Source: Actinomycetes bacterium (GTDB lineage: Bacteria > Actinomycetota > Acidimicrobiia > Acidimicrobiales > JABEUL01). From it: DNA of 48,681 bases. The stretch spans positions 1-48,681 of the forward strand of contig JAJYDO010000009.1 in the NCBI GenBank assembly GCA_021777355.1. Reading direction: 5' to 3'. The notes below the pieces were generated by a model that made no database searches, had not been told where the DNA came from, and saw nothing but the letters and a program-made list of their open reading frames with translations. Positions 12,631 to 17,213 of the stretch are shown in pieces. A program made the position numbers and the translations under genes. Each line of letters opens with the position of its first letter. The stretch's first letter is position 1.

Positions 12631-13356
12631 ATGACTTTTTTTGGAATTACTACCATCCAGCAATACGACAGAGGCGTAGTTTTTCGATTTGGCAAACTTC
12701 GAAATGTTAGAGAGCCGGGGCTAAGGTGGGTTATCCCTCTTGTTGATCAAGTTAAGCGGGTTAGTCTTCGAACAGTTACCATGCCTATCCAGTCGCAGCG
12801 CATAATCACGAAGGACAACGTATCGATTGCTTTGGCAGGAGTTGCTTACTTTAGAAGGGTGGATGTGGTCAAGTCCATCGTTGAGATAGAAAATGTAAAT
12901 GCAGCCATTTATGAAATCGCACAGACAACGGTGCGAAATGTGATTGGTCAATCCACTCTTGACCATGTCCTCGGGGAAACTACTGCGCTTAACGCAAAAA
13001 TAAAGGAGATCCTTGACGAACGTACCGAACGCTGGGGAGTGTTAGTTGAGCTTGTAGAGCTAAAAGATATTGAGCTTCCACAGTCCATGGAAAGAGCCAT
13101 GGCGAAGGAGGCCGAGGCAGAGCGCGAGAAGCGTGCCAAGATCATTGCTGCTGAAGGTGAAGCACTCAGCGTCGAAAAGCTGGCGGAAGCCGCGGACGTA
13201 ATTTCTAGCCATCCAATTGCCCTCCAGCTTAGAAACCTGCAGGTGCTGGCAGAGATATCGGTGGAAAAAAACTCGACGATTATTTTTCCGGCGCAGTTCA
13301 TGGACACCGTAAGGGCAATGGAGCATTTTATTAACCACGAGTCATCAGGCCTATAA
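12631..13356 (+). CDS. Slipin/stomatin-like SPFH (Band 7) protein lacking a membrane anchor
   Basis: 241 residues. The SPFH domain covers about residues 7-180, with [36 protein letters not shown] and the [37 protein letters not shown] helix that defines slipins. A conserved C-terminal coil ends at about 215. Slipins normally begin with a hydrophobic hairpin that anchors them to the membrane. Here the ATG, preceded by an excellent AGGAGG at 12621-12626 (4 nt spacing), starts directly at the SPFH strand, so the anchor is absent. The protein may be peripheral or tethered by a partner. No NfeD-type partner gene is adjacent. Confidence 0.87.
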
Positions 13357-13552
13357 GTATTAATTCACCAAAGTATCTTTTTTTAGTTTTCCGAGACCAG
13401 AATTTGGAGAAACGCCTGCAAAAGCTCGATATATCTTGTCAAACTTCTGTGCTTGGGCAACCTTTATGGAATTTCAGACTTACTAGATTTATCAAAATAC
13501 CTGGTAAATCTGCATATTATCGGGTGTGATTACAACAATTGCGAATAAACCG

Positions 13553-13567
13553 ACAATATTATATTGT
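13553..13567. promoter_or_regulatory. Upstream palindrome, candidate regulator site for the alk operon
   Basis: ACAATAT-T-ATATTGT is a perfect 15-bp inverted repeat ending 12 bp before the -35 hexamer. It shares the ATATTG/CAATAT half-site with the palindrome over the transcription start. The two ATATTG halves are 51 bp apart, close to five helical turns, which would suit cooperative or looping binding by one dimeric repressor. The TetR-family protein ending the operon is the obvious candidate; this is inference. Confidence 0.45.
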
Positions 13568-13579
13568 TTGTACAAGTAC

Positions 13580-13607
13580 TTGACATTTTTTGGTTTTTGT
13601 CTATAAT
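13580..13607 (+). promoter_or_regulatory. Consensus sigma-70-type promoter of the alk operon
   Basis: TTGACA at 13580-13585 and TATAAT at 13602-13607 are both perfect matches to the housekeeping consensus, separated by 16 bp. The transcription start is expected at about 13614, leaving a leader of about 32 nt to the alkB ATG, with no clear Shine-Dalgarno. A promoter this strong for a catabolic operon implies tight repression, and palindromes lie on both sides of it. Confidence 0.75.
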
Positions 13608-13611
13608 AGCT

Positions 13612-13628
13612 ATATTGCGATGCAATAT
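13612..13628. promoter_or_regulatory. Candidate TetR operator overlapping the alk transcription start
   Basis: ATATTGC-GAT-GCAATAT has perfect 7-bp arms and begins 5 bp after the -10 hexamer, so it covers the expected start point. This is a classic repressor position. Size and symmetry suit a TetR-family dimer. The regulator is probably the operon's last gene, which would give autoregulation, but binding is not shown by sequence alone. Confidence 0.55.
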
Positions 13629-13645
13629 CCCGATTCATCGATCCC

Positions 13646-14911
13646 ATGGAGAAAAATCCCTTGACTGCTGCTAGCTCTGAAATGAATAACTCAGGTATTT
13701 CAATAGATACATCCCAGGTTGCTAAACCCTTGCCAACTGTTAGCTGGCATGACCCTAAACGCTACCTTTGGCTACTGGGATTATTGGTTCCCACCTTGCC
13801 ATTCATGGCGTACCTTTTAGCAAAAGTATCAGGTCTTGGCTTTTTCTGGTGGTGGGGACCTATTTTTATTTTTGGAATTATGCCAGGTTTAGATACCCTG
13901 GTTGGCCGGGATGGACTAAACCCTCCGGATGAAGTAATTGCCAGGCTTGAGGCAGATCGATACTATCGCTGGTGTACATACCTTTTCTTGCCTATTCAAT
14001 ATGCTTCACTTATTTGGGCGTGCTGGATGTGGGCCCATGGAGGGCTTTCAGTCGTAGACAAAGCTGGCCTAGCCCTCACCATAGGAAGCGTAAGTGGAAT
14101 AGCTATTAATACTGCACACGAACTTGGGCACAAAAAAGAAACGGTTGAAAGATGGCTTTCTCGGGTCGCACTCGCACAAACGGGCTACGGCCACTTTTTT
14201 ATTGAGCACAACAGAGGCCATCACGTGCGTGTAGCAACCCCTGAAGATCCGGCTAGTTCGCGCTTGGGCGAAAGTTTTTGGGCATTTTGGCCAAGGACGG
14301 TTTCTGGATCGTTCAAAAGCGCATGGAGACTGGAAAAGACGAGGCTCAATCGGTCGAATAAGAGCCCTTGGACTCTTAAGAATGATGTCTTGAATGCATG
14401 GGCCATGTCAGTTGTCCTGGCTGCCTGTCTCCTCATCGCATTTGGAATCGGCATTGCACCGTGGCTAGCGATTCAAGCGGTATTTGGGTTTTCACTACTT
14501 GAAGTTGTTAACTACCTGGAGCACTATGGACTCCTCCGGCAAAAAAGTGAGGACGGGAGATATGAAAGATGCCAGCCTAGACATAGCTGGAATTCAAATA
14601 ATGTGTCATCAAATGTCCTTCTCTATCATTTACAGCGCCACAGCGACCATCACGCAAATCCCACTAGAAGGTATCAGGCTCTTCGATCATTTGATGAAGC
14701 TCCCGAACTTCCGAGCGGCTATGCGACAATGATTGTTCTTGCATACATAACGCCTTTATGGCGGAAAGTTATGGATAAGAGAGTACTTGCGCACTATGGA
14801 GGGGATGTAACGCTTGCGAACATTCACCCCAGAAAGGCTTCGAAAATACTTCGCCGTTACGGCAATAAAAGCATGCCAAGCAATGAAAACCCGGGTTCTG
14901 TGGCGGCTTAA
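13646..14911 (+). CDS. alkB: Alkane 1-monooxygenase (AlkB)
   Basis: 421 residues, integral-membrane diiron hydroxylase that converts n-alkanes to 1-alkanols using electrons from rubredoxin. The three histidine boxes are present: HELGH (158-162), EHNRGHH (187-193) and LQRHSDHH (329-336), plus the signature NYLEHYGL around 289-296. Hydrophobic segments at about 41-60, 64-80, 110-130, 140-157 and 252-285 fit the six-helix AlkB topology. Length is typical; no rubredoxin is fused to the C-terminus, and two separate rubredoxins follow instead. The ATG at 13646 lies about 32 nt after the predicted transcription start. The stop is 1 nt before the first rubredoxin ATG. Chain-length preference cannot be read with confidence. 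Confidence 0.96.
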   Translation: MEKNPLTAASSEMNNSGISIDTSQVAKPLPTVSWHDPKRYLWLLGLLVPTLPFMAYLLAKVSGLGFFWWWGPIFIFGIMPGLDTLVGRDGLNPPDEVIARLEADRYYRWCTYLFLPIQYASLIWACWMWAHGGLSVVDKAGLALTIGSVSGIAINTAHELGHKKETVERWLSRVALAQTGYGHFFIEHNRGHHVRVATPEDPASSRLGESFWAFWPRTVSGSFKSAWRLEKTRLNRSNKSPWTLKNDVLNAWAMSVVLAACLLIAFGIGIAPWLAIQAVFGFSLLEVVNYLEHYGLLRQKSEDGRYERCQPRHSWNSNNVSSNVLLYHLQRHSDHHANPTRRYQALRSFDEAPELPSGYATMIVLAYITPLWRKVMDKRVLAHYGGDVTLANIHPRKASKILRRYGNKSMPSNENPGSVAA

Positions 14912-14912
14912 G

Positions 14913-15074
14913 ATGACTGCCTATAAATGTCCGGTATGCGACTACAAGTATGACGAAGAAATAGGCGACTTGCGAGAAGGCTATCCTCCAGGCACTAAAT
15001 GGGAAGACGTTCAGGACAACTGGACGTGTCCCGATTGCGGAGTACGCGAAAAAGTTGACTTTGTTCAAGATTGA
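14913..15074 (+). CDS. rubA1: Rubredoxin 1
   Basis: 53 residues. Four iron ligands lie in two CPxC/CPDCG knuckles: Cys6, Cys9, Cys39 and Cys42, with the usual GDLREGYPPGTKWEDV linker. It carries electrons from rubredoxin reductase to AlkB. The ATG lies 1 nt after the alkB stop, so translation is probably coupled; a longer in-frame extension upstream overlaps alkB and is not supported. Alkane operons of Rhodococcus and relatives carry two consecutive rubredoxins, of which usually only the second (AlkG2 type) supports alkane hydroxylation. Which of these two is the functional donor is not certain from sequence. Confidence 0.93.
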   Translation: MTAYKCPVCDYKYDEEIGDLREGYPPGTKWEDVQDNWTCPDCGVREKVDFVQD

Positions 15075-15126: not shown

Positions 15127-15294
15127 ATGAAAATATGGCAATGCCAGCAATGCGGATTTGAATACGATGAAGCTAAAGGTTGGCCTGAAGAAGATATTGC
15201 CCCCGGAACGAAGTGGGAAGACATTCCAGATGATTGGTCGTGTCCGGATTGCGGTGCAGCCAAAGCAGATTTCGAGATGGTTGAAGTCGGCTGA
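15127..15294 (+). CDS. rubA2: Rubredoxin 2
   Basis: 55 residues, with Cys6/Cys9 (CQQC) and Cys39/Cys42 (CPDCG) as iron ligands and the typical [20 protein letters not shown] loop and [10 protein letters not shown] end. It is paralogous to the preceding rubredoxin but has a GFEYDEA first knuckle and PDDW, the AlkG2-like pattern of AlkB-active rubredoxins. An AAAAGGA stretch at about 15108-15114 lies upstream, and the stop is 1 nt from the reductase ATG. It is too short for common ORF cut-offs and easily missed. Confidence 0.93.
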
Positions 15295-15295
15295 A

Positions 15296-16582
15296 ATGAA
15301 AGTTGTTATAGTGGGCACAGGTGTTGCCGGAGCCAGTGCTGCTATTGCACTTCGAAATGAAGGCCATAGAGGTCCAATTACCCTTATTGGCAGTGACCCC
15401 GAAGATCCTTATAGAAGGCCACCCTTATCTAAAGATTTTCTTGGCGGCACTATGCCAGTTGAACGCACCAGATTAAAACCCCCGACAATTTGGGCGGAAA
15501 AAGAGATCGAATTGATAAAAGGTGCAAATGCCGAATCAATAGACGTAGGAGGAAAAACTATTCACTTGGATTCCGGGCAAGTTCTCCAGTATGACCAACT
15601 ACTACTTGCAACAGGAGGACGACCCAAAGTACTTAAGTCGGAATTTATGGACATGACCCACGTTTATACTCTCAGACATCTCAGAGATGTAGCTCCACTT
15701 CGCAATGAGCTTAATGCGGGATCGCATTTAGTTGTGGTTGGAGCCGGATTAATCGGGTCCGAAGTAGCTGCCACTGCTAAAGGGCTCGGCGTGAAAGTGA
15801 CAATACTCGAAGCAGCGTCAGCACCAATTGCCCGACTGATGCCCGCCTGGCTGGGGGAGAAAGTTGCCAGCCTTCACAAAGACATGGGCGTAAAGATGGT
15901 AATGAATGCGAGAATTGAATCTTTTAATCAATACGAAGGCGGTGTTCGAATATCTATGGCGTCTGGCAACCGAATAGACGCCAATGCCGTCTTAGTGGCA
16001 ATAGGAATGACACCAAACATTGAACTGGCTGCCAACGCCGAGATTGAGGTGGCAGATGGAATTGTAGTGGACGCATATGGACGAACTTCGCAAGACAGTG
16101 TTTGGGCAGCGGGCGATGTGGCAAACATGGAAAATGGCTTTTTGGGTGGCAGGTATAGAATCGAGCACTGGACTAACGCACAAGACCATGGTGTTGCAGT
16201 GGCTAAAAATATACTTGGCCAAAATGCACCTTATAATCCTGTTCCTTGGTGTTGGTCAGATCAATACGGGGTTAGCCTCCAGATATGTGGATGGCCGGAT
16301 GCCTCAGATGACGTAGGAGTTCGGGGAGATATAAACTCAAACTCATTTCTGACCTTCTTTCACAGGAAAGGCCGACTAGTGGGATCTATAGCGTTTTCGA
16401 AGCCCAAAGAACTGAGAGCAATTCGTGAGCTAATTGGAAAAAGTCCATTTATAAGTCCAGAGTTATTATCCGATCCCAAAGTTGATTTGGCAGAACTTGC
16501 AAAGTCTCAAATTGAGGCAGAGCAGTTCGAAAATAAGAGGAATGAAACCGCTGCCATAAAGGATTTAGTCCGTGAAAGATGA
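15296..16582 (+). CDS. rubB: Rubredoxin reductase (FAD/NAD(P)H-dependent)
   Basis: 428 residues, a two-dinucleotide-fold flavoprotein of the ferredoxin/rubredoxin reductase family. The FAD motif GTGVAG lies at 7-12, then YRRPPLSKDF (39-48), ATGGRP (105-110), NAD(P)H motif GAGLIG at 149-154 and second FAD motif VWAAGD at 269-274. It feeds electrons from NAD(P)H to the rubredoxins. The start is the ATG 1 nt after the rubA2 stop; the 46 codons available upstream overlap rubA2 and lack a family match. It overlaps the TetR gene by 11 nt, placing it firmly in the alk operon. Confidence 0.93.
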   Translation: MKVVIVGTGVAGASAAIALRNEGHRGPITLIGSDPEDPYRRPPLSKDFLGGTMPVERTRLKPPTIWAEKEIELIKGANAESIDVGGKTIHLDSGQVLQYDQLLLATGGRPKVLKSEFMDMTHVYTLRHLRDVAPLRNELNAGSHLVVVGAGLIGSEVAATAKGLGVKVTILEAASAPIARLMPAWLGEKVASLHKDMGVKMVMNARIESFNQYEGGVRISMASGNRIDANAVLVAIGMTPNIELAANAEIEVADGIVVDAYGRTSQDSVWAAGDVANMENGFLGGRYRIEHWTNAQDHGVAVAKNILGQNAPYNPVPWCWSDQYGVSLQICGWPDASDDVGVRGDINSNSFLTFFHRKGRLVGSIAFSKPKELRAIRELIGKSPFISPELLSDPKVDLAELAKSQIEAEQFENKRNETAAIKDLVRER

Positions 16583-17213
16583 TCTTCACATCAATAGAGC
16601 TCAAAACATAAGAAGCGAGGCCCGTTTAAAACTGCGAGATGCAATATTGGATTGCGCAAGGCATCTTGCGATTGATAAAGGCTGGTCAGATGTCAGGATG
16701 AGCCAAATCGCCGCTTTAGTTGGAATAAGCCGCCAAAGCCTCTACAGTGAATTTGGAGACAAAGAAGAGCTTGGCAAAAAAATGGTTATTAGAGAATCAT
16801 CTCGATTCTTCGACGGGATAAGAGCTGCATTAAACGCACATCCGACGGATCTCATTGCTGCTGTTGAATCTGCCGTTGAGTTGACTTTAAGGGAGGCGTA
16901 CGGCGATCCGTTGCTGCACTCAATTCTCACTAACGCAAGAGGAGGCGACTCGAGTTTAATTAGGTCTTTGACTACTGAGTCAGCTCCAATACTAAACGGG
17001 GCGAGCGAAGTCATTCTTAATTATGTGAGAACAAACCATCCGCAGCTCCCGGAAGATTTAGTTTTGGATGTAGTTGACTCAATAATACGTCTCACTGTGA
17101 GCCATCTGGTACTCCCAGTTGAGGAGCCTGAGATTGTAGCCAAGAGGCTTGCGCGTCTTACAGCACTAGTTGTCAACGCATCGGTGAGCGAGTCAGCGCA
17201 ATTGGGTTTTTAA
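16572..17213 (+). CDS. alkU: TetR-family transcriptional regulator (AlkU-like)
   Basis: 213 residues. The N-terminal TetR DNA-binding domain occupies about 20-68, with the helix-turn-helix MSQIAALVGISRQSLYSEFGDKEEL at about 43-67, followed by an all-helical ligand-binding domain. GTG start inside the 3' end of rubB (11-nt overlap). The position, last in alkB-rubA1-rubA2-rubB-TetR, is the same as alkU in Rhodococcus-type operons. It probably represses the operon through the palindromes at 13553-13567 and 13612-13628, with an alkane-derived molecule as inducer; that part is inference. Confidence 0.9.
   Translation: MKDDLHINRAQNIRSEARLKLRDAILDCARHLAIDKGWSDVRMSQIAALVGISRQSLYSEFGDKEELGKKMVIRESSRFFDGIRAALNAHPTDLIAAVESAVELTLREAYGDPLLHSILTNARGGDSSLIRSLTTESAPILNGASEVILNYVRTNHPQLPEDLVLDVVDSIIRLTVSHLVLPVEEPEIVAKRLARLTALVVNASVSESAQLGF

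Follow-up and report, generated by a model that had tools for sequence, protein, structure and literature searches.

The window, that is, the whole 48,681-nucleotide stretch that was analysed, carries an alkane-oxidation operon whose genes follow one another on a single strand in the order alkB-rubA1-rubA2-rubB-tetR, with the TetR gene, alkX, lying directly 3' of alkB and the rubredoxin genes (Table 1). The initial annotation described both ends of this operon correctly. Namely, the last gene does encode a TetR protein, and the promoter in front of alkB is indeed a perfect housekeeping promoter, matching the consensus at 12 of 12 positions (TTGACA-N16-TATAAT) with a spacer of 16 bp. The alkX gene, which starts with GTG, shares 11 bp with the end of rubB, and for this reason cotranscription of alkX with the rest of the operon is likely. 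Directly 5' of the promoter, on the same strand, lies a gene of the SPFH/Band 7 family (12631-13356). As for the starts of individual genes, the ATG of alkB at 13646 has no preceding ribosome-binding site, while a GGAGA at 13648-13652 stands 8 bases 5' of an in-frame TTG at 13661, which, judging by this arrangement, may be the true start. Similarly, the mechanically called rubB frame, opening with TTG at 15158, overlaps rubA2, and homology begins only at the ATG near 15296, which is likely the true start of that gene.

Table 1. Features of the alk operon and of the region upstream of it
Feature	Position	Strand	Remarks
Upstream palindrome ACAATAT-T-ATATTGT	13553-13567		inside predicted AlkX site 1; not conserved
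Predicted AlkX site 1, CCGACA-N13-TGTACA	13550-13574		dyad 13562; 12.1 bits, rank 8 window-wide
Predicted AlkX site 2, TTGACA-N12-TGTCTA	13580-13603		dyad ~13591.5; 14.9 bits, rank 3 window-wide
-35 hexamer TTGACA	13580-13585	+	also left half of predicted AlkX site 2
-10 hexamer TATAAT	13602-13607	+	16 bp from the -35 hexamer
Start-point palindrome ATATTGC-GAT-GCAATAT	13612-13628		not conserved; without AlkX half-site
alkB, alkane 1-monooxygenase	13646-14911	+	Pfam FA_desaturase
rubA1, rubredoxin	14913-15074	+	Pfam Rubredoxin
rubA2, rubredoxin	15127-15294	+	Pfam Rubredoxin, NCBIfam RubredRD
rubB, rubredoxin reductase	15296-16582	+	Pfam Pyr_redox_2 plus Reductase_C
alkX, TetR-family repressor	16572-17213	+	TetR_N plus TetR_C_35; GTG start

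The AlkB protein of the window is 60-74% identical to AlkB-type relatives annotated or placed in alk operons. In most of the other Acidimicrobiales loci (L119-L133), alkB is immediately preceded by a TetR gene of more distant kinship and is not directly followed by a rubredoxin gene. What is more, the alkB of the window is nearer (73-74%) to loci from outside the order, which suggests that the operon was acquired by horizontal transfer.

The closest solved structures to the TetR protein are those of M. tuberculosis Rv3249c (5d1w, E=4e-23) and Dietzia AlkX (5ydp, E=4e-21). In addition to its DNA-binding (TetR_N) and ligand (TetR_C_35) domains, its recognition-helix region aligns across the AlkX family (SRQSLYSEFGDK vs SRQTIYNEFGSR), and so does a stretch reading LTTESAP(I/L). 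Domain content, nearest relatives and gene position agree in this respect, and on the grounds of its sequence the protein is a member of the AlkX group, the repressors of alkB-rubredoxin operons, with an identity to the other AlkX proteins compared of only 31-39%. AlkX in Dietzia and M. tuberculosis binds and represses the alkB promoter and is released by fatty acids (PMC8784404, PMC9430723). In particular, C10-C24 fatty acids weaken the DNA binding of the Dietzia protein (PMC8784404), and palmitate weakens that of the M. tuberculosis protein (PMC9430723). The operator, for which EMSA and footprint data are published, is described as unusually long, with similar operators in Mycolicibacterium chubuense NBB4 (PMC8784404, PMC9430723).

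Where would such a regulator bind? We gathered alkB loci from Acidimicrobiales and the wider phylum, removed near-duplicates, and split the remaining 117 by the presence (67 AlkX-linked loci) or absence (50 unlinked loci) of a downstream AlkX-like gene on the strand of alkB. Where an AlkX gene lies downstream, the alkB upstream region carries an element of the form TTKACA-N13-TGTMAA, usually doubled, with dyads 30 bp apart. Its core, GACA-N13-TGTC, is matched at no fewer than 7 of 8 positions upstream of 49 of the 67 AlkX-linked alkB genes (6.9 in shuffles) and fully at 15 of them (0.45 in shuffles), and spacers other than N13 stay near background, with the exception of N20, whose excess the tandem arrangement probably explains. 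The pairing is even more distinctive. Namely, two core sites exactly 30 bp apart (at least 13 of 16 positions) occur at 33 of the 67 loci, as against 0.07 in shuffles, while each other distance is found at 0-8 loci; with the geometry relaxed, the pair is present at 43 of 67, against 0.6 expected. The half-sites are near-invariant across 27 aligned tandem sites. By spacer, pitch and second spacer, AlkX-linked loci with the pair include the classes 13/30/13 (28 loci), 14/31/14 (4) and 12/29/12 (1), a pattern in which spacer and pitch tend to move in step; it looks as if the bound units had to touch, an idea that we hold with slightly more doubt than confidence.

Several loci deserve separate mention. 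The 14/31/14 element, in which spacer and pitch grow jointly, belongs to four loci (L194, L216, L223 and L229) from large genomes of 8.8-10.7 Mb, which have alkB and a downstream AlkX-like gene and in which the search found no rubredoxin. Three unlinked loci (L102, L103 and L182) carry the pair and, upstream of alkB, an AlkX-like gene in divergent orientation; there the variant pair ends in AGTGTAAA. On plasmids, most AlkX homologues neighbour genes for P450, thioesterase or oxidoreductase enzymes instead of alkB, and, being mostly not next to alkB, they served as side evidence only. In pMyong1 of Mycobacterium intracellulare subsp. yongonense (L043, 5121-5170) the pair lies between an alkX-like gene and a P450 gene, and on a Tsukamurella tyrosinosolvens plasmid (L048, 4398-4448) it lies beside an AlkX-like gene, with a GMC oxidoreductase gene adjoining, which hints that regulation of the AlkX type may extend to other oxidations. 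Tentatively, then, AlkX-type regulators of Actinomycetota may share one code, TTKACA/TGTMAA at N13, read in a two-site array of fixed 30-bp pitch, whether they are linked to AlkB or, in the two plasmid cases, to other oxidoreductase genes; the chances that this generalization holds are, in our opinion, just short of balanced.

The window carries this tandem element upstream of alkB, with N12 in place of N13 in site 2, and the left halves of the two predicted sites are exactly 30 bp apart. Scored with a symmetric half-site model built solely from other loci (37, partly related and equivalent to some 7.5 effective ones), the best tandem match in the window, at 13552/13582, reaches 27.0 bits, the runner-up in the entire 48.7 kb reaching 10.4 and the median of the AlkX-linked loci being 26.0. 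None of 5000 shuffles attained this score (best shuffle 17.0); a spacer of 12 bp was permitted once the window had been seen, and was permitted in the shuffles as well. A stricter, strand-specific weight matrix places the site third in the window, with 7 of 5000 shuffles scoring at least as high; that matrix is dominated by mycobacterial sites, and the symmetric half-site model is better suited to a protein that binds a dyad. Site 2 spans the promoter from the -35 hexamer through the spacer to the edge of the -10 hexamer. Site 1, which reads TGTACAAA-N9-ATTGTCGG on the minus strand and wholly encloses the upstream palindrome, matches the core GACA-N13-TGTC at 7 of 8 positions, and is degenerate, with CC for TT and TGTA for TGTC. 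The TGTACAAG half occurs also at another Acidimicrobiales alkB-alkX locus (L118), and the combination of a 12-bp spacer with a 30-bp pitch, seen in site 2, occurs at no other locus. Given how low the identity between the AlkX protein of the window and its relatives is, the half-site code could have drifted. Elsewhere in the same genome, single-site matches are near background (261, against 178 in the reversed control), and the sole perfect one falls within a coding frame. No match to the alkB promoter was found in the genome of the same genus (G001, locus L010) or in four genomes of the same family; in the former, whose AlkX is 91% identical, the contig ends 24 bp before alkX.

Could the promoter be simply constitutive, unrepressed by AlkX, and the match no more than a likeness between a consensus promoter and the motif? 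It should be noted that TTGACA at 13580-13585 is counted twice, once as the -35 hexamer and once as a half-site, so that any consensus promoter would by itself supply part of the match. That said, the three other half-sites stand at the conserved spacing and form no part of a promoter consensus, the tandem score lies far above that of the runner-up, and most other loci place their -35 and -10 elements differently relative to the sites, which makes a constitutive promoter quite improbable. As a further thought, the promoter in Acidimicrobiales might be able to shift relative to the AlkX array and stay covered, a proposal we put forward with a little less than even confidence.

The initial annotation had placed the operator elsewhere, proposing that the TetR protein binds two ATATTG/CAATAT palindromes cooperatively, from positions phased about five helical turns apart. 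The palindromes are where it put them and both are perfect, with 7-bp arms: the upstream one ends 12 bp before the -35 hexamer, and the other covers the expected start point at approximately 13614. They flank the promoter and share a hexamer, and two palindromes sharing a hexamer arise in just 0.27% of shuffles. The sharing is real for the string and fails for the half-site, however, as the upstream palindrome reads CAATAT toward its centre and ATATTG away from it, and the start-point palindrome the reverse. With the polarity opposite at the two places, a single homodimer has no common way of reading them. The phasing does not hold up either. Namely, the 51 bp behind it separate the right arm of the upstream palindrome from the left arm of the start-point one, while the dyads, which are what matters for dimers, lie at 13560 and 13620, a distance of 60 bp, which makes 5.7 turns at 10.5 bp per turn. 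Neither palindrome occurs, even with up to 3 mismatches allowed, in the 117 other alkB upstream regions, in which the nearest match to either has 4 mismatches in 14 positions. Conservation of the pair in relatives with the same operon was something on which the initial annotation had itself staked its proposal, and the pair is absent from the closest AlkB relatives with a downstream alkX (L160, AlkB 74%; L095, 73%), a comparison with relatives that are not very close, none being of the same genus or family. What is conserved at AlkX-linked loci is the tandem element, which sits between and across the palindromes instead. Taken together, these comparisons indicate that the two palindromes are probably not the operator of AlkX, and that their cooperative occupation by the TetR protein is highly improbable.

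What, then, are the palindromes? A rather likely answer is that they are due to chance in an AT-rich intergenic region or that the start-point one forms a stem-loop in the leader RNA. The region is 66% A+T, and in a shuffle test of 13357-13645, which is post hoc, 22% of the shuffles contain one or more such palindromes and 2.4% contain two; it is the sharing of the hexamer that chance seldom yields. The stem-loop, for its part, is not favoured by the predicted fold of the leader, which is no better than in shuffles (z = +0.49) and in which the palindrome is not the main stem, nor by a search of Rfam, which returned no matching family. This answer and an AlkX operator on the tandem sites can be true together. 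One can also argue that, with AlkX on the tandem sites, the start-point palindrome is the operator of a second regulator or a third, auxiliary contact of AlkX. Indeed, a perfect palindrome over +1 is in the classic position for a repressor, and this one has a single exact occurrence in the 2.78-Mb genome. However, the sole site with one mismatch, on contig C37, is without evident alkane context, the 117 related promoter regions have no similar site, and the palindrome carries no AlkX half-site, so that we consider such a role unlikely.

We believe that the region is very probably an autoregulated AlkX operator-promoter, a reading based on the protein family, the order of the operon, the conserved tandem element and the position of that element over the promoter. 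Binding, repression and release by fatty acids are taken over from the characterised relatives. In such a scheme, the AlkX encoded by the final gene would bind the two adjacent dyad sites, whose dyads are approximately 30 bp apart. The downstream site stretches from the -35 hexamer over the promoter spacer as far as the edge of the -10 hexamer, so that bound AlkX would keep RNA polymerase off the consensus promoter. Oxidation of alkanes would then supply long-chain fatty acids (or the corresponding acyl-CoAs), which would bind AlkX and release it from the DNA, and the operon, together with alkX, would be expressed for as long as these fatty acids last. The loop would be autoregulated, given the terminal position of alkX and its overlap with rubB. 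Within one site, 17 bp separate the half-sites, more than one TetR dimer would usually span, and therefore a pair of dimers on each predicted site of about 25 bp is possible, by analogy with other members of the family. In other words, the kinship of the TetR protein with AlkX lends good support to the earlier suggestion that the operon is repressed by its own TetR product, and it is only the choice of the two palindromes as the operator that has to be given up.

Most likely, the system is of a known kind and extends AlkX control to an uncultured lineage of Acidimicrobiales, the regulator having been rightly suspected and the operator wrongly placed. A plausible but wrong guess at the operator is replaced by a specific, testable one. 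Moreover, the analysis provides an operator pattern that can be carried over to other cases of alkane oxidation under AlkX control, applicable in regulon prediction and in the design of alkane or fatty-acid reporters, and the shared two-site code, compared with the Dietzia operator by description only, may be useful beyond the window. Among TetR-family proteins, operators occupied by several dimers are familiar from QacR, which binds as a pair of dimers, and from EthR, with its 55-bp operator, and the array described here is like them in that it extends over approximately 54 bp, contains several half-sites and is longer than one TetR dimer needs. The AlkX-regulated alkW1 promoter of Dietzia sp. 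DQ12-45-1b, reportedly the subject of work by Liang et al. in 2016 and 2017, offers a closer parallel. The two have in common a TetR repressor gene just downstream of the alkane hydroxylase and rubredoxin genes, a long operator at the promoter and, by analogy in the window, a fatty-acid releasing signal (PMC8784404). The regulators are homologous, but only about one third identical, and, unlike Dietzia alkW1, the window comes from Acidimicrobiales and has separate rubredoxins and a rubB gene. Finally, the alkB-rubA-rubB-alkX cluster of M. tuberculosis resembles the operon in its gene order and encodes the best solved relative of its regulator, Rv3249c, which binds the alkB promoter in EMSA; cotranscription of alkX with alkB-rubAB was not seen there, whereas in the window the overlap with rubB makes it likely (PMC9430723).
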